Shown here piece after piece: positions 24,653 through 36,611 of a stretch of DNA of 64,000 nucleotides. Origin of the DNA: Cellulomonas sp. SG140 (lineage in GTDB: Bacteria; Actinomycetota; Actinomycetes; Actinomycetales; Cellulomonadaceae); NCBI RefSeq assembly GCF_025770785.1, contig NZ_JANZLA010000004.1, positions 1-64,000 on the forward strand, written 5' to 3'. The notes under the pieces were generated by a model that saw only the letters and a program-made list of their open reading frames with translations, had not been told where the DNA came from and searched no databases. Numbering within the stretch: position 1 is the stretch's first letter; every line of letters begins with the position of its first letter. The position numbers and the translations under genes were made by a program.

Positions 24653-24656
<4 letters not shown>

Positions 24657-25822
24657 CCGACGCCCCACCGCCTTCGATCCCACCGCGCAAGCGACCGTCC
24701 CCTGCAGGTCAGGGCGACGTCCGGACTGTCGGCGGGGTCCCAGGCCAGGGCGGACCGGCCGACGACACCATGCGCGTCGAGACCGGCCCGCGGGCGTCGG
24801 CCGTCGTGCCCGGCACGACCGACGGTGGCCTGCCGGCGAGCGTGCCTCCGACCCGGACGCCGCGGCCCGTGACGCGGCCGGTCAGCGGCGAGACCGCCCG
24901 CCCGGCCGGCAAGCGCGGGTCCCGCACCAACCCGCGCACCACGCGGGTCACCGGGCCGATCGGCCAGGACCCGGCGTCCGTCGCGTCGGTGAGGGACGGC
25001 GACGGTGCGGCGAGCGCTCCGGTCTCCCGAGCGGACGCACCCGAGCGGCGACAGGCCGCGACGGACGCCAGCACCGCTGACGGAGCAGGGGCACGGTCCC
25101 CGCAGGACGGCGGCCCCGTGAGGGCCACCGCCGGCGCTTCCGCGGTCGGCGCCGCCGCCGCGTCTGCCGCCGGTCCGAAGGCGGGCGCCACAGCTCCCGA
25201 GGCCGGTGCCGCGACGGGTCCGCGCGACGAGGAACCCTCGCCGTCGCCGCTGCTGGAGGCGGTCGACCGTTCGACCGTCTGGCTGAAGAAGACGGCGGGT
25301 GCCGCTGGCGCGGGCCTGAGCGCCGCGTACGCTTCGTTGACACGCCCTCGGCCCCAGGAAGAGCCCATGACCGCCAACCCGACCGCTCCCGCCGCGTCCG
25401 CGCGGCCGGCACCGGTGCCCCCGCCGCACCCGGCGACGGGCCGCGCGCCCGCACCGGGCGCACCTCGGCGGGTCCGGCTGGCGATCTCCCGGCTGGACCC
25501 GTGGTCGGTGATGAAGCTGTCGCTGCTGCTGTCCTTCGCGCTCGGCATCATCCTGGTGGTCGCGACCGCGGTGGTGTGGCTGACGCTCGACGGCCTGCAC
25601 GTGTTCGCCAGCATCAACGACCTGGTCAAGCAGGTGGTCGGCCCGGAGAGCGCCGTCAACGTGACCGACGTGATCAGCTTCCGCAAGGTGATCTCCGGCG
25701 CGACTCTCGTCGCGGTGATCGACGTGTTCCTGCTGACGGCGATGTCCACGATCGGCGCGTTCCTGTACAACATCGTGGCGGCGCTGGTGGGCGGCGTGCA
25801 CGTCACGATGACGGACGAGTAG
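24653..25822 (+). CDS. DUF3566 transmembrane protein
   Basis: 389-residue protein of unknown function found directly after gyrA in most actinobacteria (M. tuberculosis Rv0007 is the positional homologue). The first 270 residues are Pro/Ala/Thr/Gly-rich and disordered. The conserved DUF3566 part begins [21 protein letters not shown] and has two membrane helices, roughly residues 285-308 and 345-375, ending with [17 protein letters not shown]. It is translationally coupled to gyrA (ATGA overlap). A link to gyrase or to the envelope is only suggested by synteny. Confidence 0.9.
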
Positions 25823-25840
25823 CCGCAGCATCCTTGCGTT

Positions 25841-25870
25841 TTGGGCCGGGAAGCGTCGCTGGGGTAGTCT
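25841..25870 (+). promoter_or_regulatory. Candidate promoter of tRNA-Ile
   Basis: TTGGGC (25841-25846), 18-base spacer, TAGTCT (25865-25870), 40 bases before the mature 5' end of tRNA-Ile. The -35 is imperfect. Confidence 0.45.
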
Positions 25871-25910
25871 CGACCGGCGCGCGCAGCCCGGCTCCCGGTC
25901 ACCGCGCCCG

Positions 25911-25984
25911 GGGCCTATAGCTCAGACGGTTAGAGCGCTTCCCTGATAAGGAAGAGGTCACAGGTTCAAGTCCTGTTAGGCCCA
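25911..25984 (+). tRNA. tRNA-Ile (anticodon GAT)
   Basis: 74 bases with a full cloverleaf: acceptor GGGCCTA paired with TAGGCCC, discriminator A, anticodon loop CTGATAA, T-arm GGTTCAAGTCC. CCA is not encoded (CCCA is followed by CTCG). It is in the usual position after gyrA. Confidence 0.98.
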
Positions 25985-25999
25985 CTCGAGGAGGTACCG

Positions 26000-26119
26000 A
26001 TGAAGAAGCTGCTGGTCCTCGCCGCCGCTGCCGCCGTCGGCTACGTCGTCTACCAGAGGTACGTGCAGGACCGCGACGAGCGGGACCTGTGGGCCGAGGT
26101 CACCGACACCTTCGAGTGA
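26000..26119 (+). CDS. DLW-39 family microprotein
   Basis: Exactly 39 residues: Met-Lys-Lys, an Ala/Val/Leu hydrophobic helix to about residue 18, then QRYVQDRDERDLWAEVTDTFE, with the Asp-Leu-Trp triplet at 29-31 that names this actinobacterial family. It has a strong GAGGAGG ribosome site (25988-25994) and sits between tRNA-Ile and tRNA-Ala, as in relatives. The N-terminal helix suggests membrane association; function unknown. Its co-transcription with the tRNAs is likely because the gaps are 15 and 36 bases. Confidence 0.9.
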   Translation: MKKLLVLAAAAAVGYVVYQRYVQDRDERDLWAEVTDTFE

Positions 26120-26155
26120 CCCGCCGCTCCGGACCGTGACCGGTCCGGTTCCCCG

Positions 26156-26228
26156 GGGGCCATGGCGCAATTGGTAGCGCACCTGCTTTGCAAGCAGGGG
26201 GTTACGGGTTCGAGTCCCGTTGGCTCCA
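26156..26228 (+). tRNA. tRNA-Ala (anticodon TGC)
   Basis: 73 bases: acceptor GGGGCCA pairs with TGGCTCC (one G-T), discriminator A, anticodon loop CTTTGCAAG, T-arm GGGTTCGAGTCCCG. CCA is not fully encoded. The accessory sugar-transport block begins 32 bases downstream. Confidence 0.98.
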
Positions 26229-26260
26229 CCCTCGGCTCCGCCCGCCTGTGACGTGCCCGT

Positions 26261-27826
26261 TCACGCGGGCTGCGGGCGGTCCCCGCTCTCTCCGGCGATG
26301 GCGTGGATCAGGTCCTCCTCCGTCAGGCGGTCCCCGCCCAGCACGTCGGTCACCTTGCCCTCGCGAAGCACGACGATGCGGTCCGACCCGTCGATCAGCT
26401 CCTCGGTCTCCGACGAGATGAGCAGCACCGCGAGACCGTCCGCCGCCAGCGCGTCGATGGCCACCCGTACCTCGATCTTGGCGCCGACGTCGATGCCGCG
26501 CGTCGGTTCGTCGAGGATCAGCACCTTCGGGTCGAGGCACAGCAGGCGCGCCAGCAGCACCTTCTGCTGGTTGCCGCCGGACAGGGTGCCGACCTTCTGG
26601 TCCGGGCCGGACGCCTGGATCTTCAGCTGCTTCATGAAGCCGTCAACGATGGCGTCGATCCGGCCGTTCGAGATCAGGCCGGCTCGGGACAGCCGCGGCA
26701 GGGCGCCGAGGATGATGTTGTCGCGGATCGAGAGGTTGGGCAGGATCCCCTCGAGCTTGCGGTCCTCCGGCAGCAGCGCGACGCCGGCCGCGATGGACGC
26801 CCCCGGTGAGCCGGCGCGGACGGGCTCACCGTCGACCGTGACCGTGCCCGAGTCGATCCGCTGTGCACCGAGCACGGCCATGCCGGTCTCGCTGCGGCCG
26901 GCACCCAGCAGACCCCCGAGGCCGACGATCTCGCCGGGACGCACCGTGAACGAGACGCCGTCCAGCACGCCGCGCCGCGTCAACCCGTCGACCGTGAGCA
27001 CCGGCTCCGTCAGCACCTCGTCGTCGAGCCCGTCGTTCGGCTCCACCTCGGAACGGCGGCGCGTCTCGGCGAGCAGCTCACGGCCGAGCATCGCCGCGAC
27101 CAGCTGGAGCCGGGGCAGCTCCCCGAGCGGTCCGGTGTGCACCAGCCGCCCGTCCCGCAGGACGGTGACGGTGTCGCAGATGCGGTACAGCTCGTCGAGC
27201 CGGTGGCTGACGTAGAGCACGGCCACACCCTCGGACGCCAGGCGGTCGATCGCGGCGAACAGCGTCTCGACCTCACGGGCCTCGAGCGACGACGTCGGCT
27301 CGTCCATGATCACCACGTCCGCACGCGCCGCGACGGCACGCGCGACGGCGACCATCTGCTGGGTGCCGAGACCGAGCGAGCCGAGGGGCGCCTCGACGTC
27401 GACATCGACCCCGTAGCGCTCCAGCACCTCGCGTGCCTGGCCGTTCATGGCGCGGAAGTCGATCAGGCCGAGGCGGGTTCGAGGCTCGCGGCCCAGGAAC
27501 AGGTTGCGCGCGGCGGTGAGCGTGGGGACCAGGTTCACCTCCTGGTAGATCGTGCTGATGCCCGCCGCCTGCGCCGCGCCCGGGCTGCGGAACGTCGCCG
27601 GCCGGCCGCGGTGGAGCACCTGGCCCGCGTCCGGCGGGTAGACACCGGTGAGCACCTTGATCAGCGTGGACTTGCCGGCGCCGTTCTCCCCCACCAGCGC
27701 ATGGACCTCCCCGCGGCGCAGCACCAGGTCGACGTCCTGCAGCGCCGTGACGCCGGGGAACGACTTGGTGACGGCACGCGCCTCCAGGACGGCGGACGAG
27801 GACGGTCCGGGGGCAGAGGCGGGCAC
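26261..27826 (-). CDS. Sugar ABC transporter ATP-binding protein (RbsA/YtfR-like), orphan
   Basis: 521-residue ATPase with two fused nucleotide-binding domains, as in ribose/galactofuranose importers (CUT2). The first has Walker A GENGAGKST and LGLGTQQM in place of the LSGGQ signature, then Walker B VVIMDEPTSSLE; the second has a degenerate Walker A (GLLGAGRSE) and LSGGNQQKVLLARLL, typical of this class. GTG 27826 has AGGAGG eight bases upstream. It has no permease or binding protein beside it; it closely resembles the ATPase at 31461, so it may be a duplicate serving that or another transporter. A DeoR gene is 95 bases upstream on the same strand. Confidence 0.9.
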   Translation of the reverse strand: MPASAPGPSSSAVLEARAVTKSFPGVTALQDVDLVLRRGEVHALVGENGAGKSTLIKVLTGVYPPDAGQVLHRGRPATFRSPGAAQAAGISTIYQEVNLVPTLTAARNLFLGREPRTRLGLIDFRAMNGQAREVLERYGVDVDVEAPLGSLGLGTQQMVAVARAVAARADVVIMDEPTSSLEAREVETLFAAIDRLASEGVAVLYVSHRLDELYRICDTVTVLRDGRLVHTGPLGELPRLQLVAAMLGRELLAETRRRSEVEPNDGLDDEVLTEPVLTVDGLTRRGVLDGVSFTVRPGEIVGLGGLLGAGRSETGMAVLGAQRIDSGTVTVDGEPVRAGSPGASIAAGVALLPEDRKLEGILPNLSIRDNIILGALPRLSRAGLISNGRIDAIVDGFMKQLKIQASGPDQKVGTLSGGNQQKVLLARLLCLDPKVLILDEPTRGIDVGAKIEVRVAIDALAADGLAVLLISSETEELIDGSDRIVVLREGKVTDVLGGDRLTEEDLIHAIAGESGDRPQPA

Positions 27827-27921
27827 GGTGGGCGCCTCCTTCCCCTCGTCGGGCGTGCTGGCGCCCCACACTAGGCGACCCCCGCGCGGATGGCGTTCCC
27901 CGGTGGTGGACCTGAGGGTGG

Positions 27922-28704
27922 TCACCCGTCGTCCCGGGTGCCGGCGACGTGCACCTGGACGCCCACCGCACGCAGGGCGGCGAGCGTGCCGGCGTCGGCA
28001 CCGTCGTCCGTGACGACGTGTGCGATGCGGTCGACCGGCACGCTCTGGAACGGCGCGTCGGTGCCGAGCTTCGTGTGGTCGGCGAGCACCACCACCTCCT
28101 GCGCCGCGTCGGCGACGGCCCGGTCGACACCGGCCTCCGCGAGGTCGGAGGTGGACAGCCCCCAGCCGGCGGTCAGCCCGTCGCCGGAGAGGAACGCGCG
28201 GCGCACGCGCAGGTCGGCGAACGACTGCTCGGCACCGCTGCCGACCAGGCCGTACGTCGCGCCGCGCAGCGAGCCACCCGTCATCACCACCGACACCCCG
28301 CGGGCCTGGCCGAGGACCTCGCCGACCAGCAACGAGTTGGTCACCACCGTGAGGTCCGAGGCCTCGACCAGGGTCGCGGCCAGCTGCTGGGCGGTGGTCC
28401 CCGCGCCGATCGCCACGGCGTCTCCGTCCTGCACCAAGGTGGCCGCGAGCCGCGCGATCGCCACCTGCTCCGGCCGGGCGGCCGGGTCGGACCCCTCGGT
28501 CGACCGGTTCCCCGCCGCGGGGTCCTGCAGCGCCGCCGCGCCGCCGCGGTGCCGGGCGATCAGCCCCTGCTGCTCGAGCGCGCGCAGGTCCCGACGGATC
28601 GTGACCTCGGAGGCGTCGACCGCCTGGGCCAGCTCGCGCAGGTCGGCCGTGCCGTGACGGCGCACGTGCTCGAGGATCCGGCGCCGCCGCTCCGTCGCGA
28701 ACAC
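27922..28704 (-). CDS. DeoR/GlpR-family transcriptional regulator
   Basis: 260 residues. An N-terminal winged HTH (MFATERRRRILEHVRRHG ... DASEVTIRRDLRALEQQGL) is followed by the DeoRC sugar-phosphate sensor with IGAGTT, LTVVTNSLLV and LADHTKLG. Such proteins repress sugar genes and release DNA on binding a phosphorylated sugar. It precedes the orphan ABC ATPase on the same strand and probably shares its transcript. Its C-terminal end resembles the neighbouring 361-residue DeoR, which suggests local duplication. Confidence 0.9.
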   Translation of the reverse strand: MFATERRRRILEHVRRHGTADLRELAQAVDASEVTIRRDLRALEQQGLIARHRGGAAALQDPAAGNRSTEGSDPAARPEQVAIARLAATLVQDGDAVAIGAGTTAQQLAATLVEASDLTVVTNSLLVGEVLGQARGVSVVMTGGSLRGATYGLVGSGAEQSFADLRVRRAFLSGDGLTAGWGLSTSDLAEAGVDRAVADAAQEVVVLADHTKLGTDAPFQSVPVDRIAHVVTDDGADAGTLAALRAVGVQVHVAGTRDDG

Positions 28705-28850
28705 GGGCTCACGGTACTGGACGGGATCGGTGCGCCAGTCGGATTGCCGCCGGAACGGTCGCGCACCGATCCCGTCCGGTCGGAAGCGGTCAGGCGGCGT
28801 GCCGGCTCGGAGGGCTCACTGCGTCGTCGGCCGCGCCCGTCGTGCCGGGG

Positions 28851-29936
28851 TCAGGCGGTGGCGCCCGCCAGGTCGGACGGGGCGACGTGCACGTGCACGC
28901 CGCGGGACGAGAGCGACTCGAGCACCGAGGTGTCGCCGGAGGTGTCCGTGACCAGGTGGTCGATCCTGGTCACCGGAGCCACGGGGTACGTGCTCTCCAC
29001 GCCGAGCTTCGTGTGGTCCGCCAGCACCACCAGCTCCTTGGCGCTGCCGACGATCGCCCGCTCCACCTCGGACACCGCGAGGTGCGTGCTGGACAGCCCG
29101 CGTTCCGTGGTCAGTCCACCGCCCGAGACGAAGGCCCGGGTGACACGCTGACCTGCGATCCAGTGCTCCGCGGCGCTGCCGACCAGCGCAAGCGTCGAGT
29201 TGTCCAGCGAGCCGCGGGTCATCACCAGCTCGACGTTGGGCGTCCGCGCGAGCGCGCGCGCGACGAGCATCGAGTTGGTCAGCACCGTCAGCGGTGAGCG
29301 GGGCGCCAGCCTCCTGGCCAGCTCGTACACCGTGGTGCCGGCTCCCAGCATGATGGCCGTCGCGTCGCCGACCAGGGTCGCGGCGAGCGCGGCGATGGCC
29401 GACTTCGCGGTCGTCTCGGGGTCGGGCGGCGCCGTCGGCCAGGGCTCGATGATCAGGGCGTCCGGCAGCTGCGCGCCGCCGTGGGCACGCTCGATCAGCC
29501 CCTGCCGCTCGAGCGTGACGAGGTCGCGGCGGACGGTGACCTCGGACGCGTTGACGGCCGCGGCGAGGTCGCGCAGCGAGACGACACGGTTGGCCCGCAC
29601 GTACTCGCAGATCAGACGGCGGCGTTCGGCGCCGAACATCGTCGTGCGAGCGGGGCCGGCCGCCTCGCCGAGCACGAGCGTCTCGCCCCGCTCCCCGTCC
29701 TGCTGCGGCGCGCCGCCCGGCTCGCGGTTCTGCCGCAGCGTCCCGCCGAGCTCCCCGTCCGGCAGCAGCGCCCCGCCGTGACTGCGGTCGAGCAGCCCTC
29801 GGCTCTCGAGGGTGGTGACGTCGCGCCGCACCGTGACCTCGGACGCGTTGACCGCCATGGCGAGGTCACGGATCGACACCGCACCCTGGGCCCGGACGAG
29901 CTCGAGGATCAGCTGGCGACGCTCGGCGCCGAACAT
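28851..29936 (-). CDS. DeoR-family regulator with tandemly duplicated HTH domain
   Basis: 361 residues. Residues 1-60 and 100-159 are two copies of the DeoR winged HTH; both begin MFGAERR and share about 44 of 60 residues, including NASEVTVRRD. A Gly/Glu/Gln-rich linker (61-99) joins them. The C-terminal DeoRC domain has LGAGTT, LTVLTNSMLV and LADHTKLG. The full-length start at 29936 has a strong GGAGG site; the second copy starts at an in-frame ATG (29639) that would give a usual 262-residue DeoR but lacks a clear ribosome site. It is divergent from the sugar importer at 30277 and is its likely regulator. Confidence 0.92.
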   Translation of the reverse strand: MFGAERRQLILELVRAQGAVSIRDLAMAVNASEVTVRRDVTTLESRGLLDRSHGGALLPDGELGGTLRQNREPGGAPQQDGERGETLVLGEAAGPARTTMFGAERRRLICEYVRANRVVSLRDLAAAVNASEVTVRRDLVTLERQGLIERAHGGAQLPDALIIEPWPTAPPDPETTAKSAIAALAATLVGDATAIMLGAGTTVYELARRLAPRSPLTVLTNSMLVARALARTPNVELVMTRGSLDNSTLALVGSAAEHWIAGQRVTRAFVSGGGLTTERGLSSTHLAVSEVERAIVGSAKELVVLADHTKLGVESTYPVAPVTRIDHLVTDTSGDTSVLESLSSRGVHVHVAPSDLAGATA

Positions 29937-30100
29937 GTCCCTCCTTGCCCCTCCACCGTCAGGCCGGGACGAGCGGCCTGGTCAGCCCAAGGGTAGCGTT
30001 CGCGGGTGCTCCGGCGCTTCCGAGCTCGATCGCTCATGGCCAGGGACTTGGCCAGTGCGAACGAGCCAGGTCACGATTTGATCACGTGATGGACGAGTGG

Positions 30101-30130
30101 TTGACGGTCCGATCAGAACTTCGTCAATAT
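30101..30130 (+). promoter_or_regulatory. Candidate promoter and operator region of sugar importer
   Basis: TTGACG (30101-30106), 18-base spacer, CAATAT (30125-30130). Nearby are the palindromic ATCACGTGAT (30080-30089) and repeated GATCA/GATCAC words, plausible DeoR-type operator elements between the divergent regulator and importer. Confidence 0.45.
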
Positions 30131-30276
30131 CGATCACACACACGTTCCGCCGGCGTCGTCGCAAGGGTGCGACACCGCGGGACGCCGCGGGTTCGCACCG
30201 GACGTCGAAGGGGACGCCGTCCGGCCCGGCCCGCCCGCAGGTGCTCGTTCCACCTCGTCCAAGGAGCCACACACCC

Positions 30277-31359
30277 ATGTCGATGAAGACCTCGCGGCGC
30301 ACGACCGTCACCGCCCTCGCGCTGGCGGTCGGCCTCGCCGCCGCCGGATGCTCGTCGTCGTCCGCCGGATCCACCTCCGGCGGGACCGCCGCCGCTGCTG
30401 CCAACCCGACCGTGGCGTCATCCGGCGCGGCGTCCGCGTCCGGTGACGGCTGCACGGCGAGCGCGCTCGGCTACCCGAAGATCAGCCTCAAGGGCGCCAA
30501 GGTCGGCTTCTCCCAGTCGGAGCCGGAGACCGCCGCGTTCCGCATCGCCGAGACCAAGTCGATGGTCGACGAGGCTGCCGCGCAGGGCGCCACGCTGATC
30601 AAGACGAACGCGAACAGCGAGATCGCCAAGCAGGTCACGGACATCCAGGGGATGATCAACCAGGGCGTGCAGCTGCTGATCGTGGCGCCGCTGAACTCGG
30701 ACGGCCTGCAGCCGGCCTTCGACGCGGCCCGTGCCAAGAAGATCCCCGTGGTCACCGTCGACCGCCTGGTGAACTCCAAGGCCTGTACCGACTACCTGAC
30801 CTTCATCGGCTCCGACTTCGTGTCCCAGGGCAAGCGCGCCGCCGACGCGATGATCAAGCAGACCGGTGGCACCGGCAAGGTCGCCATCCTGCTCGGCTCG
30901 TCGGGCAACGGCGTCACCACCGACCGGACCAGCGGCTTCGTCGACGAGATCAAGACGGCGCCCGGCATCCAGGTGGTCGCGCAGCAGACCGCCAACTTCG
31001 CGCGGACCGACGGTCAGACGGTGATGGCCTCGCTGCTGCAGGCCCACCCGGACATCACCGCCGTGTACGCCGAGAACGACGAGATGGGCATCGGCGCGGA
31101 GACCGCGATCGCCGCTGCCGGCAAGACGCCCGGCAAGGACATCAAGATCGTGTCGGTCGACGGCACGCACGACGCCGTGCAGCTGCTGGTGGACGGCAAG
31201 TACAACGGCGTGATCGAGTCCAACCCGCGGTTCGGCCCGCTCGCCTTCAAGGCGCTCGCCGACTTCGAGAACGACACCCCGGTGCCCGCGAAGATCATCA
31301 TCTCGGACAACGAGTACACGCCGGACAACGCCTCGGCGAACCTCTCCAAGTCGTTCTGA
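30277..31359 (+). CDS. Sugar ABC transporter substrate-binding lipoprotein (YtfQ-like)
   Basis: 360 residues. A lipoprotein signal (SMKTSRRTTVTALALAVGLAAAGC, lipobox AAGC with Cys25) is followed by a Ser/Gly linker and a type I periplasmic-binding fold: KVGFSQSEPETAAFRIAET, LLIVAPLNSDGLQPAF, AVYAENDEMGIGAETAI and VSVDGTHDAVQLLVDGKYNG. These resemble the galactofuranose-binding YtfQ more than RbsB. ATG 30277 follows AAGGAG by ten bases. It is the first gene of SBP-ATPase-permease-permease, the ytfQRT-yjfF order. The sugar is inferred, possibly a furanose. Confidence 0.88.
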   Translation: MSMKTSRRTTVTALALAVGLAAAGCSSSSAGSTSGGTAAAAANPTVASSGAASASGDGCTASALGYPKISLKGAKVGFSQSEPETAAFRIAETKSMVDEAAAQGATLIKTNANSEIAKQVTDIQGMINQGVQLLIVAPLNSDGLQPAFDAARAKKIPVVTVDRLVNSKACTDYLTFIGSDFVSQGKRAADAMIKQTGGTGKVAILLGSSGNGVTTDRTSGFVDEIKTAPGIQVVAQQTANFARTDGQTVMASLLQAHPDITAVYAENDEMGIGAETAIAAAGKTPGKDIKIVSVDGTHDAVQLLVDGKYNGVIESNPRFGPLAFKALADFENDTPVPAKIIISDNEYTPDNASANLSKSF

Positions 31360-31372
31360 CCCGAGCGACCCA

Positions 31373-31425
31373 CCTGCACCCGCCGCCCGCCCGGCGCCGT
31401 CGGCCCGGACGGCGGCGGGTGCAGG
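31373..31425. other. Long stem-loop between binding-protein and ATPase genes
   Basis: Perfect 15-bp inverted repeat (31373-31387/31411-31425) enclosing a 23-base loop that can form a second small stem. It starts 14 bases after the binding-protein stop and has no T-run. Such hairpins commonly protect the abundant upstream binding-protein mRNA and reduce downstream expression. Confidence 0.6.
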
Positions 31426-31460
31426 ATGTCCAGACCCAGCACAACCAGGGAGAGCACTCG

Positions 31461-33017
31461 ATGGCGGAGCTCACCACGGCCGGGGCGCCCCCCGTGCTGG
31501 AGGCCCGGGGCGTGAGCAAGTCGTTCCCGGGCGTCAAGGCACTCAGCGACGTCAGCCTCACGGTGCGCGCCGGCGAGGTGCACGCGCTGGTCGGCGAGAA
31601 CGGTGCCGGCAAGTCGACGCTGATCAAGATCCTCACCGGCGTGTACCAGTGCGACAGCGGGGAGCTGCGGCACCGCGGCGAGCCGGTGACGTTCGCGGAC
31701 CCGCGGGCGGCGCAGGCGGCCGGCATCAGCACCATCTACCAGGAGCTGGACCTGGTGCCGATGCAGAGCGCGGCGCGCAACCTGTATCTCGGCCGCGAGC
31801 CGCGCACCCGGTTGCGGCTGGTCGACTTCGCGCGGATGCGGCGCGAGGCGAACGCCCTGCTCGACGACTACCAGATCCGCGCCGACGTCGACGTGCCGCT
31901 GAACACCCTGGGCCTGGGCACGCAGCAGATGATCTCGGTGGCCCGGGCGGTCGCGCTGCGCGCGAACGTCGTGATCATGGACGAGCCCACCTCCTCGTTG
32001 GAGTCCCGCGAGGTGGAGACGCTGTTCGGGATCATCCGGCGGCTGCGGTCGGAGGGCGTGGCGATCGTCTACGTCAGCCACCGGCTGGACGAGCTGTACC
32101 GGATCTGCGACACGGTGTCCGTGCTGCGGGACGGCCGGCTGGTGCACACCGGTCCGATGGCGGAGCTGCCGCGGGTGCAGCTGGTCGCGACGATGCTCGG
32201 CCGGGAGCTGCAGACGGCGCTGCACCGCTCGGCGCCGGGGGGCGGCGACCGCATCGTCGCCGGCCCGCCCGTGCTGGAGCTGCGCGGGCTGACCCGTCGC
32301 AACCGTCTGCACGACGTCTCGTTCGAGGTGCACCGCGGCGAGGTCGTCGGGCTCGGCGGCCTGCTCGGCGCCGGCCGCAGCGAGACCGGCATGGCCGTGC
32401 TCGGTGCGCAGGAGCTCGACTCCGGCGCCGTGCTCGTGGAGGGCAAGCCGATCCGTACCGGGTCGCCGGGAGCGGCGATCGAGGCCGGCGTCGCGCTGCT
32501 GCCGGAGGACCGCAAGCTCGAGGGGATCCTGCCGAACCTGTCCATCCGCGACAACATCGCCATCGCGGCACTGCCCCGGATGTCCCGCCTCGGCCTGGTG
32601 TCCGACAAGCGGATCGACCAGCTCGTCGGGCACTTCATGGCCCGGCTGCACATCCGGGCGACCGGGCCCGGCCAGAAGGTCAGCACGTTGTCCGGCGGCA
32701 ACCAGCAGAAGGTGATGCTGGCGCGGTGGCTGTGCCTGAGCCCGCGCGTGCTGGTGCTCGACGAGCCGACGCGCGGCATCGACGTCGGGGCGAAGTTCGA
32801 GGTGCGTCAGACGATCGACGAGCTCGCCGCAGAAGGTCTCGCGGTGCTGCTGATCTCGTCCGAGACCGAGGAGCTGGTCGACGAGAGCGACCGGATCGTG
32901 GTGCTCAAGGACGGGGCCGTCGTCGCGGTGCTCGACGGCGACGACATCAGCGAGCACGACCTGGTGCAGGCGATCGCCGCAGTCCCGTCCCCTGAGGAGG
33001 ACCCCACCCGTGACTAG
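31461..33017 (+). CDS. Sugar ABC transporter ATP-binding protein (YtfR/RbsA-like)
   Basis: 518-residue duplicated ABC ATPase. Domain 1 has GENGAGKST and VVIMDEPTSSLE; domain 2 has the degenerate GLLGAGRSE and LSGGNQQKVMLARWL with VLVLDEPTRGIDVG. It powers import by the adjacent permeases. ATG 31461 is chosen for AGGGAG at 31447-31452 and because the conserved sequence starts just after. It overlaps the first permease gene by eight bases. The orphan ATPase at 26261 is a close paralogue along its whole length. Confidence 0.92.
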   Translation: MAELTTAGAPPVLEARGVSKSFPGVKALSDVSLTVRAGEVHALVGENGAGKSTLIKILTGVYQCDSGELRHRGEPVTFADPRAAQAAGISTIYQELDLVPMQSAARNLYLGREPRTRLRLVDFARMRREANALLDDYQIRADVDVPLNTLGLGTQQMISVARAVALRANVVIMDEPTSSLESREVETLFGIIRRLRSEGVAIVYVSHRLDELYRICDTVSVLRDGRLVHTGPMAELPRVQLVATMLGRELQTALHRSAPGGGDRIVAGPPVLELRGLTRRNRLHDVSFEVHRGEVVGLGGLLGAGRSETGMAVLGAQELDSGAVLVEGKPIRTGSPGAAIEAGVALLPEDRKLEGILPNLSIRDNIAIAALPRMSRLGLVSDKRIDQLVGHFMARLHIRATGPGQKVSTLSGGNQQKVMLARWLCLSPRVLVLDEPTRGIDVGAKFEVRQTIDELAAEGLAVLLISSETEELVDESDRIVVLKDGAVVAVLDGDDISEHDLVQAIAAVPSPEEDPTRD

Positions 33018-33987
33018 CCTGTCCACCGCGGTCGCCGGGACGGCGGCGAAGGCCGACCGCGCCACCGTGCTGCGCTGGACCAGGGACAACGGCGTGTACG
33101 TCGCCCTGGTGCTGATCGTCGTCTACAACGTGCTGTTCACCCCACGCTTCATCACCTGGGACAACCTCGACGTGCAGCTGGTGCTGTGCACCCGGATCGT
33201 CGTGGTGGCCCTCGGCATGGCGATGGTGATCGGGACGGCAGGCATCGACCTGTCCGTCGGCGCCGTGATGGCCCTGTCCGGCGCGCTGCTGGTGCAGTTC
33301 AGCGGCGTGCCGGGGGTCGGGGCGATCGCCCTGGCGCTGGTGATCGGCGGCCTGGTCGGGGTGCTGAACGGGTTCCTGGTCGGCGTCGTCGGGATCCAGC
33401 CGATCGTGGCGACCCTGGCGTTCCTGTTCGCCGGCCGGAGCATCGCGCAGCTGCTGCTGGCCGGCAAGAACCCGAGCATCCACGACAAGGTGATCCTGGG
33501 CATCTCCTCCGGCCACGTGCTCGGGGTGAACGGCCTGATCATCGCGGCGCTGGTCGCCGTCGGGCTCGTCGCGTTCACCGTCCGGCGGACCAGCTTCGGC
33601 CGGCAGCTGCTGGCCGTCGGGGACAACGCTCGGGCGTCGTACCTGTCGGGGGTTCCCGTGCGACGCACGCTGATCGGCGTCTACGTGCTCAGCGGGGTGC
33701 TGGCGGCGTGGGCCGGCGTGATGGACACCGCGTCGATCACCTCGGCGAACGCCCTGTCCAGCGGGCTGAACTACGAGCTGTTCGCCATCACCGCGGTCGT
33801 GGTGGGCGGGACGCCGCTCACCGGCGGACGGGTCAGGGTGGTCGGCACGGTGGCCGCCGCGATCCTCATGCAGCTGCTGCGCAGCACGCTGATCTTCCAC
33901 TCGGCGACGGACGCGGTGTCCCAGATGGTCACCGCCGTCGTCATCGTCGGCGCCGTCTACATCCAGCGAGTGAGGGCACGCGCATGA
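33010..33987 (+). CDS. Sugar ABC transporter permease (YtfT/RbsC-like)
   Basis: 325-residue integral membrane protein with 8-10 hydrophobic helices and the BPD_transp_2 hallmarks GTAGIDLSVGAVMALSG and FAITAVVVGGTPLTGG. GTG 33010 is preceded by GAGGAGG in the end of the ATPase gene. It forms the membrane channel with the next permease as a heterodimer, as in YtfT-YjfF. The stop overlaps the next start by four bases. Confidence 0.9.
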   Translation: MTSLSTAVAGTAAKADRATVLRWTRDNGVYVALVLIVVYNVLFTPRFITWDNLDVQLVLCTRIVVVALGMAMVIGTAGIDLSVGAVMALSGALLVQFSGVPGVGAIALALVIGGLVGVLNGFLVGVVGIQPIVATLAFLFAGRSIAQLLLAGKNPSIHDKVILGISSGHVLGVNGLIIAALVAVGLVAFTVRRTSFGRQLLAVGDNARASYLSGVPVRRTLIGVYVLSGVLAAWAGVMDTASITSANALSSGLNYELFAITAVVVGGTPLTGGRVRVVGTVAAAILMQLLRSTLIFHSATDAVSQMVTAVVIVGAVYIQRVRARA

Positions 33988-35030
33988 GCACCACCGCACC
34001 GACGGGCGTCCCCGACGGCCCCGCCACCGCCGGCACCGGCCTGGCGGCGCGCCCGGTGGAACCCGTCGCCGCCACCGGGTCCCGCGTCGCGGCGGCGCTG
34101 CAGCGCAACGGGGTGGCGGCCTTCGCCGCGCTGGCGCTGCTGGTGCTGGTCGGCTCGGTGATCTGGCCGAGCTTCCACACCCTGGACAACCTGCGGAACA
34201 CGGTCCTGGGCAACTCGTACATCGGGATCGTCGCCATCGGCATGACACTCGTGATCATCACCGGCGGGATCGACCTGTCGGTCGGCTCCGTCTTCGCCCT
34301 CGGCGGCGTGGTCGGCGTGTACGTCAGCAACCAGGCGGGACCGGCCGCCGCCGTGCTGGCGACGGTGGTGGCGTGCGGGCTGATCGGCCTGATCAACGGC
34401 ATGCTGATCGGCTACGCCCGGATGGCGCCCTTCATCGTCACGCTCGCGACGCTGTTCGGGGTCCGCGGGCTGGTGTACCAGCTGACCGGGGCCGGTGCCC
34501 GGACGTACTCGGTGCCGAGCGACTCCTTCTTCGCGCACCTGGGCACCGGGGTGTTCCTGACGATCGGCTACCCGGTGCTGATCGCGATCGCGCTGTACGT
34601 GGTGTTCCACGTGGTGCTCGAGCGGACACCGTTCGGCCTGACCACCCTGGCCATCGGCGGTGGTGAGGACGCCGCCGTGCTGATGGGGCTGAAGGTGCGC
34701 CGCACCAAGGTCAGCCTCTACGTCGTCTCCGCGGCGCTCGCGGGCGTGGCCGGGATGCTGCAGGCCGCCCAGCTGGTGTCCGCCAGCCCGATCATCGCCA
34801 CCGGGTACGAGCTGCAGGCGATCGCCGCGGTGGTGATCGGCGGGACGCTGCTGACCGGAGGTGCCGGCTCGCTGATCGGTACGGCCGCCGGCGTGCTGCT
34901 GCTGGGCACGATCAACGCGTTCATCCGCGAGCTGCAGCTCGACTCGACTTGGAACAACGTGGTCAGCGGGGCGTTCCTGGTCACGGTCGTGGTGGTGCAG
35001 CGGCTGCTGAACTACCGCCGGGCCGACTGA
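33984..35030 (+). CDS. Sugar ABC transporter permease (YjfF-like)
   Basis: 348 residues. A cytoplasmic Pro/Ala/Thr N-terminus of about 40 residues is followed by 8-10 membrane helices. Motifs are ITGGIDLSVGSVFALGG, RMAPFIVTLATLFGVRGLVYQLTG and IAAVVIGGTLLTGGAGSLIGT. ATG 33984 lies inside the previous stop (ATGA). It is the last gene of the importer and converges with the gene ending at 35047, with only 16 bases between. Confidence 0.9.
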   Translation: MSTTAPTGVPDGPATAGTGLAARPVEPVAATGSRVAAALQRNGVAAFAALALLVLVGSVIWPSFHTLDNLRNTVLGNSYIGIVAIGMTLVIITGGIDLSVGSVFALGGVVGVYVSNQAGPAAAVLATVVACGLIGLINGMLIGYARMAPFIVTLATLFGVRGLVYQLTGAGARTYSVPSDSFFAHLGTGVFLTIGYPVLIAIALYVVFHVVLERTPFGLTTLAIGGGEDAAVLMGLKVRRTKVSLYVVSAALAGVAGMLQAAQLVSASPIIATGYELQAIAAVVIGGTLLTGGAGSLIGTAAGVLLLGTINAFIRELQLDSTWNNVVSGAFLVTVVVVQRLLNYRRAD

Positions 35031-35046: not shown

Positions 35047-35622
35047 TCAGCCGCGGCGGTACGCCGCCCCGCGCGCGGTGATGTCCGCGAGCACCTCTGC
35101 CGGGTACACGTCCTCGGGCTCGATGGTGACCGGACCCTCCTCCAGCGTGGCCCAGTGCCACGTCGGCTGGACGGTCGGCTGGCCGCCCTCCAGCCCGAGG
35201 CGCAGGTCGAGCAGCACCGCGTAGCGGTACCCGAACCGCCGCTGGATCGCCGTCGCGCGGCCGAAGTCGCCGGCGGTCGACCCGCGGGTGGCGTGGTCGG
35301 CGGTGAGCTCGAGGATCAGCAGGTTCTCCTCCGGGCCGAGGTGGCCGCGGCGGTGCACGATCAGGTCGGGGATGCGCCGACCCTCGGAGTCCGCGTCCTC
35401 GAGCCGGACCGCCTTCTCCAGGGCCATCGCCGACCGGTCGTACTCCGCGTCGATGTCCCAGGCGTTCTCGATCATCGGCCGCAGGTACCAGCCGAGGTGG
35501 AAGGCGATGGTGCGTTCCGAGGCGCTGCTGGTGCCGCTCGACGGGGTGAACAGCGTCCACTCGTTGGCGATCGTGTTGGTCAGCGCGATGCGCACGCGTG
35601 CCTGAAGGTCTCCCAGCTGCAT
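35047..35622 (-). CDS. Hypothetical protein, PD-(D/E)xK-like fold with altered catalytic residue
   Basis: 191 residues, no signal or membrane helix. RRIPDLIVHRRG followed by NLLILELTADH resembles the PD...(D/E)xK core of small nuclease-like proteins found as lone hypothetical genes, but the expected Lys after Glu-Leu is Thr, so catalysis is doubtful. The C-terminus has YRYAVLLDLRLG and WHWATLEEG. ATG 35622 is preferred over a start at 35715, since the extra 31 residues are Arg/Cys-rich and unconserved-looking. It sits at the right end of the accessory block. Function unknown. Confidence 0.6.
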   Translation of the reverse strand: MQLGDLQARVRIALTNTIANEWTLFTPSSGTSSASERTIAFHLGWYLRPMIENAWDIDAEYDRSAMALEKAVRLEDADSEGRRIPDLIVHRRGHLGPEENLLILELTADHATRGSTAGDFGRATAIQRRFGYRYAVLLDLRLGLEGGQPTVQPTWHWATLEEGPVTIEPEDVYPAEVLADITARGAAYRRG

Positions 35623-35719
35623 GGCCAGACGGTACCGCGCGGACGTCCGGCATCTGGTGGGTTGTCCACGCAGATGTCCGCAGATGGCAAAAGGACGGTC
35701 AGGAGATGCCCACATCTGC

Positions 35720-35765
35720 GACGAACGGCGGGGCCCCGGACACCCGGGACCCCGCCGTTTCGTCG
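35720..35765. terminator. Bidirectional intrinsic terminator-like hairpin
   Basis: Nearly perfect stem of about 19 bp (35720-35739 with 35744-35765, one mismatch and one bulged A) around an ACAC loop, followed by TTTCGTC on the plus strand. It lies 21 bases beyond the stop of the leftward gene at 35787. Confidence 0.7.
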
Positions 35766-35786
35766 TGCTGCCTTCGGGGCGAGCGA

Positions 35787-36611
35787 TCAGATGTCGCCCG
35801 AGGGGTTGTCCTTCTCCACCGCGTCCTCGGTCGCGTCGGCGACGTCCTCCGCCTTGCTGGCCGTGCGGCGGGTGACCTTCTTGGCCGCCTCCTCGGCGGA
35901 GGCGCGGGCCTCGTCGAGCTTCTCTGCCGCCTTGCGCGTCGCCTCGCGGCTCTTCGCCACCGCCGAGCCGGCCGCCTCACCCACGGCGTCGGCGGCGTCC
36001 CCCACGGCATCGGTCACGGAGGCGCGCACGTCGTGCGTGTGGGTGTGCAGCGCGTCCGCCCCGGTGCCCCCGGTCGGGTCGGTGGGCTCCCACGGCTCGG
36101 CCCAGGGGTCTACGGTCGACCGGGACCGGAACCAGGCCGCACCGGCCGCACCGGCACCGACGAGCAGGCCGACCACCATGAACGTGCTCAGACCCTTGTG
36201 CGACTTCTTCGGCGGTGTCACGTGGACCTGCTTCTTCAGCTCGGCCGCGTTCGCCTTGGCGACCTCCGCCGCGGTGTCGGCAGCCTTGACCGCCGCCGCA
36301 CCCGCCTTCTCCGCCGCCTCGTTCAGGGCGGTGACCAGGCGCGGGATCAGCTCGTCCACCAGCTTGTCGTGCGCGGTGTCGATCGCCGGCGCCGCCTTCT
36401 CGGCAGCCTTCTCCACGCGCGGTGCCGCGGCCTTGACGCTCTCGTTGTAGGCGTTCTCGAGGCGCGGCATCAGCCAGTCGATGAAGGCCTCCACCCGAGG
36501 CGTCGTCCACTCCTTGGCGTGCACGGCGGCGCCCGTCAGCGTGGCGCCGAGGTCGGCTGCCTGCTCCTTCAGCTTGTCGGGGTCAACGTCGAGCTTGCTG
36601 TGCTTCGTCAT
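35787..36611 (-). CDS. Ala/Lys-rich single-pass membrane protein in the cwsA position
   Basis: 274 residues. Residues 1-135 are an amphipathic, Ala/Glu/Lys-rich helical region likely to form coiled coils (AEKAGAAAVKAADTAAEVAKA). One membrane helix follows (GLSTFMVVGLLVGAGAAGAAW, about 140-160), then an acidic stretch and a second Ala/Glu/Lys helical tail. ATG 36611 has GGGAG nearby. In mycobacteria the leftward gene before ppiA is cwsA (CrgA/Wag31 partner); position and single helix fit, but sequence similarity to CwsA cannot be claimed from reading alone. It is divergent from ppiA. Confidence 0.65.
   Translation of the reverse strand: MTKHSKLDVDPDKLKEQAADLGATLTGAAVHAKEWTTPRVEAFIDWLMPRLENAYNESVKAAAPRVEKAAEKAAPAIDTAHDKLVDELIPRLVTALNEAAEKAGAAAVKAADTAAEVAKANAAELKKQVHVTPPKKSHKGLSTFMVVGLLVGAGAAGAAWFRSRSTVDPWAEPWEPTDPTGGTGADALHTHTHDVRASVTDAVGDAADAVGEAAGSAVAKSREATRKAAEKLDEARASAEEAAKKVTRRTASKAEDVADATEDAVEKDNPSGDI

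Follow-up and report, generated by a model that had tools for sequence, protein, structure and literature searches.

The question raised by this locus is why a DeoR-family regulator should carry two DNA-binding heads on a single sensor, and whether such a protein is real, made at full length and put to use. The gene, here called DeoR1, lies in the window, that is, the whole stretch of 64,000 nucleotides of Cellulomonas sp. SG140 that we analyzed. Its features are as follows.

28851..29936, minus strand: DeoR1, two-headed DeoR-family regulator of 361 aa (open reading frame and Pfam)
29939..29945, minus strand: Shine-Dalgarno sequence serving the long form
29757..29936, minus strand: HTH1, residues 1-60 (PF08220)
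29640..29756, minus strand: linker, residues 61-99, variable (alignment; low confidence in the AlphaFold model)
29460..29639, minus strand: HTH2, residues 100-159, first residue Met100 (Pfam and DNA repeat)
28932..29414, minus strand: DeoRC sensor, residues 175-335 (PF00455, E 2e-42 over residues 175-332; Foldseek)
29202..29216, minus strand: altered sensor loop, residues 241-245, RGSLD in place of GGxLR

The original prediction gave the open reading frame, the strand and the coordinates 28851-29936 correctly, and its reading of a tandem helix-turn-helix (HTH) duplication ahead of one sensor was borne out. Pfam found HTH_DeoR (PF08220) in two stretches of DeoR1, with 105.5 bits against a cut-off of 21, and the C-terminal DeoRC (PF00455) as one domain, with 145.2 bits against a cut-off of 31.8. 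In contrast, a single HTH per chain is usual in the DeoR/GlpR family, although this is the common state of the family and not a curated membership criterion. Residues 1-60 and 100-159 were identical at 44 of 60 positions in an ungapped alignment, compared with at most 15 in 20,000 shuffles, and the E value from BLASTP was 4e-31. At the DNA level, a repeat of 181 nt with 78% identity joins 29459-29639 and 29756-29936. The linker had been described as rich in Gly, Gln and Glu; in the window it is Gly/Glu-rich (9 G, 5 E and 3 Q among 39 residues), whereas in a second genus it has only 19 residues. As to naming, the AgaR equivalog NF040755 scored 201.4, below its cut-off of 260, and the other named NCBIfam DeoR equivalogs were also below cut-off among the matches listed (25 of 26 families).

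An AlphaFold model built from five sequences (mean pLDDT 64.8, pTM 0.51) contained HTH-like helix patterns at residues 3-45 and 102-144 as well as the sensor, with pLDDT below 50 at residues 52-100, which include the linker. The best Foldseek match was E. coli DeoR (7l6l), followed by ribose-5-phosphate isomerases (RpiA) and eIF2B subunits. Three imperfect repeats, spaced at 30 nt and 69-77% identical, occur in the DNA that encodes the last part of head 1 together with linker sequence (29677-29788); in the second genus, where the linker is short, about 20 residues of this repeat stretch are missing.

A search of 221 family genomes with the whole DeoR1 protein, in which the best nine candidates at most were scored per listed genome, gave matches at E 1e-45 or better in 10 genomes. 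The architecture recurred among these relatives: five of the 10 are two-headed, namely the window's own genome (G000), G035 and G027 of the same genus, whose DeoR1 is about 97% identical, and G143 and G144 of the second genus, at 72% and 70% identity. The linker is 37 aa long in G035 and G027 and 19 aa in G143 and G144. The other five (G023, G129, G197, G198 and G199) have one HTH, the N-terminus of the G197 row being odd. We also scanned 396 genomes of the order, 396 of the phylum and seven of the second genus with a two-head profile (E 1e-14, best nine candidates at most per genome); this profile is built on the present lineage and could miss two-headed proteins of other DeoR subfamilies. 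Any match at all was found in 24/396 order and 19/396 phylum genomes, and only the window's protein spanned the whole profile (1-159), in samples that evidently do not include G035, G027, G143 and G144, which are not among the listed matches. No other protein spanning both heads was thus found with this lineage profile, in agreement with the view that one HTH is the norm for DeoR proteins. Some weaker matches extended beyond head 1 (profile 2-124, 1-127 and 2-107); L059 and L064, which belong to this group, were single-headed on reading, as were L060, L073, L075 and L079. Within the second genus, two of the seven genomes have a two-headed DeoR1 and five do not, so that the distribution is patchy, with three genomes known from the window's genus. 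Among the literature matches listed, no two-headed DeoR was recognized in the titles and the beginnings of the abstracts.

These occurrences bear on whether the duplication is an assembly or sequencing artefact, or a recent neutral duplication without function. The contamination estimate of the window's genome (6.25%) is the one point in favor of such an origin. Against it, four other genomes are two-headed, two of them from another genus, which rules out an assembly artefact; moreover, 40 of 180 nt distinguish the two head copies in the window, and comparison between genomes shows that nonsynonymous changes are suppressed. We give this explanation practically no weight. Compared with the window, HTH1 is kept at 60/60 residues in G035 and 59/60 in G027; nonsynonymous changes number 0 and 1, respectively, and synonymous ones 7 and 8. 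HTH2 has no nonsynonymous change in either genome against 4 and 7 synonymous ones. In the linker, the numbers are 7 and 11 nonsynonymous against 6 and 9 synonymous changes (dN/dS about 0.45). Head 1 is therefore translated and constrained, as follows from the few nonsynonymous relative to synonymous changes. Compared with G143 and G144, both heads are constrained to a lesser degree, with dN/dS of 0.14-0.34 at dS of 0.5-0.9. By these measures, both heads are under purifying selection, which is strong among the three Cellulomonas-type genomes. Judged from sequence, the two-headed DeoR1 is a genuine variant, maintained by selection, of a common family of regulators.

The long form is also the one that the translation signals serve. 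As the original prediction had it, the strong ribosome site belongs to Met1, which is preceded by GGAGGG with a duplex energy of -10.8 kcal/mol; the duplex at Met100 reaches only -1.7 kcal/mol. The same pattern holds in all five two-headed genomes, in which the Met1 duplex ranges from -10.1 to -11.0 kcal/mol and no Shine-Dalgarno sequence precedes Met100 (+1.2 to -3.2 kcal/mol). A suggestion that a 262-residue short form is made from ATG 29639 accordingly found no support: the frame is possible, but support for initiation at Met100 is absent. If the locus nevertheless yielded two products, a long two-headed and a short single-headed form, it would resemble E. coli CsqR, which the available part of its description presents as made in a long and a short form through alternative starts (PMC10991401), and such a short form is thinkable by this analogy though unsupported in these genomes. 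Met100 is indeed kept in 5/5 genomes, but conservation of this Met is expected anyway, since MFGAERR is conserved at the N-terminus of each head, and taken together with the lack of a Shine-Dalgarno sequence this makes the two-product explanation improbable. Met100 is presumed to be the old start codon.

How the second head arose was approached with trees. A sensor-domain tree of 25 rows unites the five two-headed proteins in one clade (100/99) and places the five proteins encoded by the adjoining regulator gene, here called DeoR2, in a separate one (100/99). As these sensor clades place them, DeoR1 is a paralogue of its neighbor DeoR2. The stem of the two-headed clade (0.52) is the longest branch within the ingroup, and G144 groups with the window's genus and not with G143 (88/77). 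The 60-residue head tree is less decisive. When left free, it placed seven single-headed rows next to HTH1 of G144 (83/76); holding HTH1 and HTH2 together was as likely, with a marginal gain in likelihood (lnL +0.59, p-AU 0.54). None of the tested alternatives was rejected in this tree, and the free tree did not show HTH1 and HTH2 as sisters, so that the order of duplication events is left unsettled by these 60 residues. Direct comparison outside G035 and G027 showed that the head nearest to the window's HTH1 is HTH1 of G143 (48/60), followed by the window's HTH2 and both G144 heads (44/60 each); the best single-headed row is G129 with 40/60, and DeoR2 reaches 31/60. Fusion of a foreign DeoR head is not favored, as the nearest heads of HTH1 are all in two-headed proteins. 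Most likely, an internal duplication copied the stretch from the start to codon 60 and would thereby have equipped one sensor with two winged-HTH heads. For Cellulomonas, synonymous differences did not show gene conversion between the two heads (about 17/50, as estimated from dS, versus 24/50 between genera; Fisher p 0.22).

The genes on either side of DeoR1 point to sugar import and are listed below.

27922..28704, minus strand: DeoR2, single-headed paralogue, the next gene in the same direction as DeoR1
26261..27925, minus strand: ATPase2, CUT2-type sugar ABC ATPase, with a 4-base overlap with the end of DeoR2
30277..31359, plus strand: sugar-binding protein (Peripla_BP_4, YtfQ-like), divergent from DeoR1
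31419..33017, plus strand: ATPase1, CUT2-type sugar ABC ATPase
33010..33987, plus strand: permease 1 (BPD_transp_2)
33984..35030, plus strand: permease 2 (BPD_transp_2)

The best NCBIfam names for the importer were those of the galactofuranose importer, and none of the neighboring genes reached the cut-offs (YtfQ 201.9 versus 510, YtfR 562.4 versus 850, YtfT 151.3 versus 535 and YjfF 204.1 versus 363). Three of the four solved binding proteins closest to the sugar-binding neighbor are named YtfQ. G035, G027 and G143 also have the DeoR1-DeoR2 pair next to the importer, and DeoR2 adjoins DeoR1 in 4/5 two-headed genomes. The fifth, G144, has these genes split over contigs: the contig with DeoR1 ends soon after the gene, and another begins inside DeoR2 and continues into importer genes, which suggests the order DeoR1-DeoR2-importer in one direction, with DeoR1 not divergent from the importer. 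A regulator beside a CUT2 importer was also found in 4/7 single-headed genomes (G023, G198, which is the same as L038, G199 and L039); in the other three (G129, L080 and L081), no importer homologue was found near the regulator within the 14-15 kb examined. CUT2-type ATPase genes flank the regulators on both sides (26261-27925 and 31419-33017), likewise in G143.

Between DeoR1 and the divergent importer, we found a candidate operator.

30069..30136, no strand assigned: candidate operator with four half-sites, TGATC or TGACC, at spacings of 21, 31 and 11 bases

All four half-sites are kept in G035 and G027, and the array is partly kept in G143. In 16 upstream or intergenic regions of two-headed genomes and single-headed relatives (those upstream of the L080 and L081 regulators are outside this count), 75 half-sites were present compared with a shuffled mean of 23.4 and a highest value of 35 in 200 shuffles, with the reservation that the motif was picked after looking at the regions and that three of the 16 are near-identical. 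Direct half-site pairs at 10-11 bp numbered 8 versus 0.1 in shuffled regions (highest 1). For half-sites, the excess was significant at p <0.05 in 12/16 regions and was not seen in the other four, i.e., upstream of the G129 and L039 regulators and between DeoR1 and DeoR2 in the window and in G143. The region upstream of DeoR1 in G144 lacks a conserved block, yet has 4 half-sites (p 0.015). The original prediction also held that two heads might bind neighboring operators, and half-sites with a suitable spacing for this are present at 30069-30136. We rejected the idea that the array is unique to two-headed genomes, since single-headed relatives have similar ones; for the same reason, the candidate sites do not require two heads, and the arrays probably predate the second head. 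As a separate observation, the gap between DeoR1 and DeoR2 has a 20-nt inverted repeat (28716-28780, 95% complementary, 25-nt gap), possibly forming an intercistronic hairpin, and GC-rich complementary stretches were seen by eye in the corresponding gap of G143.

Considering all of the above, we regard it as fairly probable that DeoR1 is a two-headed repressor of the CUT2 importer that binds the TGATC/TGACC array beside it through both heads, with a sensor switch that has been weakened or changed; both the binding and the ligand response are inferred. The motif SEVTVRRD, which we take to be the recognition helix, is identical in both heads of 4/5 two-headed genomes, head 1 of G144 having SEVTARRD. 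Because the recognition helices are nearly identical, both heads would read the same half-site on the array that separates DeoR1 from the importer. An oligomer would in that case carry double the usual number of heads, giving repression of higher avidity or bridging half-sites one or two helical turns apart. With a flexible linker of 19-39 aa, the heads should be able to span one or two turns between half-sites on one face of the DNA, so that the oligomer would hold the array more firmly than its single-headed counterpart.

A rather unlikely alternative is that only one head binds DNA and the other is a structural or dimerization module, or turns DeoR1 into a dominant modulator of DeoR2. The altered helix in head 1 of G144, the 16/60 residues at which the window's heads differ and the similar look of operators in single-headed relatives would all fit such a division of labor, whereas the helix unchanged in both heads of the other four genomes and the strong purifying selection on both heads in the three Cellulomonas-type genomes argue against it. 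Binding through both heads remains the reading we prefer.

The sensor has changed as well. In 66 columns of the sensor, at least 90% of 16 near-relative rows (5 DeoR2 and 11 single-headed) agree, and at eight of these columns the five two-headed proteins all differ. This column test gave 3/63 for DeoR2 and 0/54, 1/56, 3/56 and 0/56 for four other groups; more changes in the two-headed clade are likely anyway, because its stem is long. Two of the changes lie in the GGxLR loop, which reads [RS]GS[LV]D in two-headed proteins: position 241 is Gly in 16/16 near relatives and 4/4 outgroup rows and Arg or Ser in the five two-headed proteins, and position 245 is Arg in the same 16/16 and 4/4 rows and Asp in the five. 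In a collection of 32 distinct loop sequences (tblastn, 1e-10), the altered form was exclusive to the three two-headed ones; 26 of the remaining 29 have GGx[LVI]R, and L066, L069 and L070 differ or align poorly. The position of this loop in the pocket is taken from an alignment with CsqR, because it lies within the low-confidence stretch 241-261 of the AlphaFold model. In that alignment, D245 corresponds to CsqR Arg150, which the accessible text of a docking study names as a ligand contact and calls highly conserved (PMC10991401). T201, T202, S271, D307 and K310 of DeoR1 match CsqR Thr106, Thr107, Ser176, Asp212 and Lys215, respectively, and the LGAGTT and ADHTKLG motifs are retained. CsqR Glu193 aligns with V288, a column that is also V in the single-headed L038 and E in DeoR2.

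Loss of the Gly and the Arg would weaken or change the sugar-phosphate switch, i.e., when DeoR1 lets go, and DeoR2, with its intact loop and a nearly identical recognition helix (SEVTIRRD), could supply the ordinary response. We also considered, as a doubtful proposal, that DeoR1 might be a pre-paired clamp on DNA that is blind to its effector or re-tuned, with its heads paired intramolecularly; replacement of the presumed phosphate-contact Arg by Asp would then abolish sugar-phosphate release, and DeoR1 would act jointly with DeoR2 on the same half-sites, possibly in mixed oligomers. If so, head duplication and switch loss would have evolved together. E. coli DeoR responds to deoxyribose-5-phosphate, and in our alignment it lacks the loop Arg as well, so that loss of the Arg is no proof of lost sensing; it is possible that the ligand response of DeoR1 is changed rather than absent. 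In addition, the second head and the changed loop count as one observation and not five, because the five proteins form one clade.

With regard to known systems, DeoR1 resembles regulators of the DeoR/GlpR family (AgaR, GlpR and CsqR type) in having both domains in the same order and a gene beside a sugar importer, and differs from them in having two HTHs instead of one and the [RS]GS[LV]D loop instead of GGxLR. The SEVT[VI]RRD helix is common to DeoR1, DeoR2 and the single-headed relatives (Cellulomonas-type, Luteimicrobium, a Nocardioidaceae MAG and others), three of which, when aligned, are 50-54% identical to DeoR1; unlike DeoR1, DeoR2 and these relatives have one head and an intact GGxLR loop. 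In the AraC/XylS family, two HTH motifs together form the ordinary DNA-binding domain, whereas DeoR1 carries a second copy of an entire DeoR head, connected through a flexible linker. MarA and Rob are described, in the part of the source available, as members with both motifs in one polypeptide (PMC8279559). According to similarly partial sources, single-headed subunits of DeoR-type repressors act in tetramers or still larger assemblies (PMC10991401), and the SorC-family tetramers DeoR and CggR of B. subtilis place several heads per assembly on a multi-site operator (PMC11229326); the latter belong to another family and, unlike two-headed DeoR1, reach multiplicity by oligomerizing single-headed subunits. 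A duplicated head kept in two genera, a rewritten effector loop and a single-headed sister together make a natural experiment, which asks how many heads are needed per operator and whether extra DNA avidity accompanies giving up the sugar switch.

Further along the window, the cluster adjoins genes for tRNA-Ile and tRNA-Ala and a DUF3566 gene (24653-26230); G035 and G027 share the DUF3566 neighbor, but none turned up in the 14 kb of G143 that we covered. Downstream of the permeases, the open reading frame 35155-36450 had no Pfam match at 1e-5 and no NCBIfam match at 1e-10, and over roughly the first 180 residues it is 92-93% identical to its counterparts in G035 and G027.
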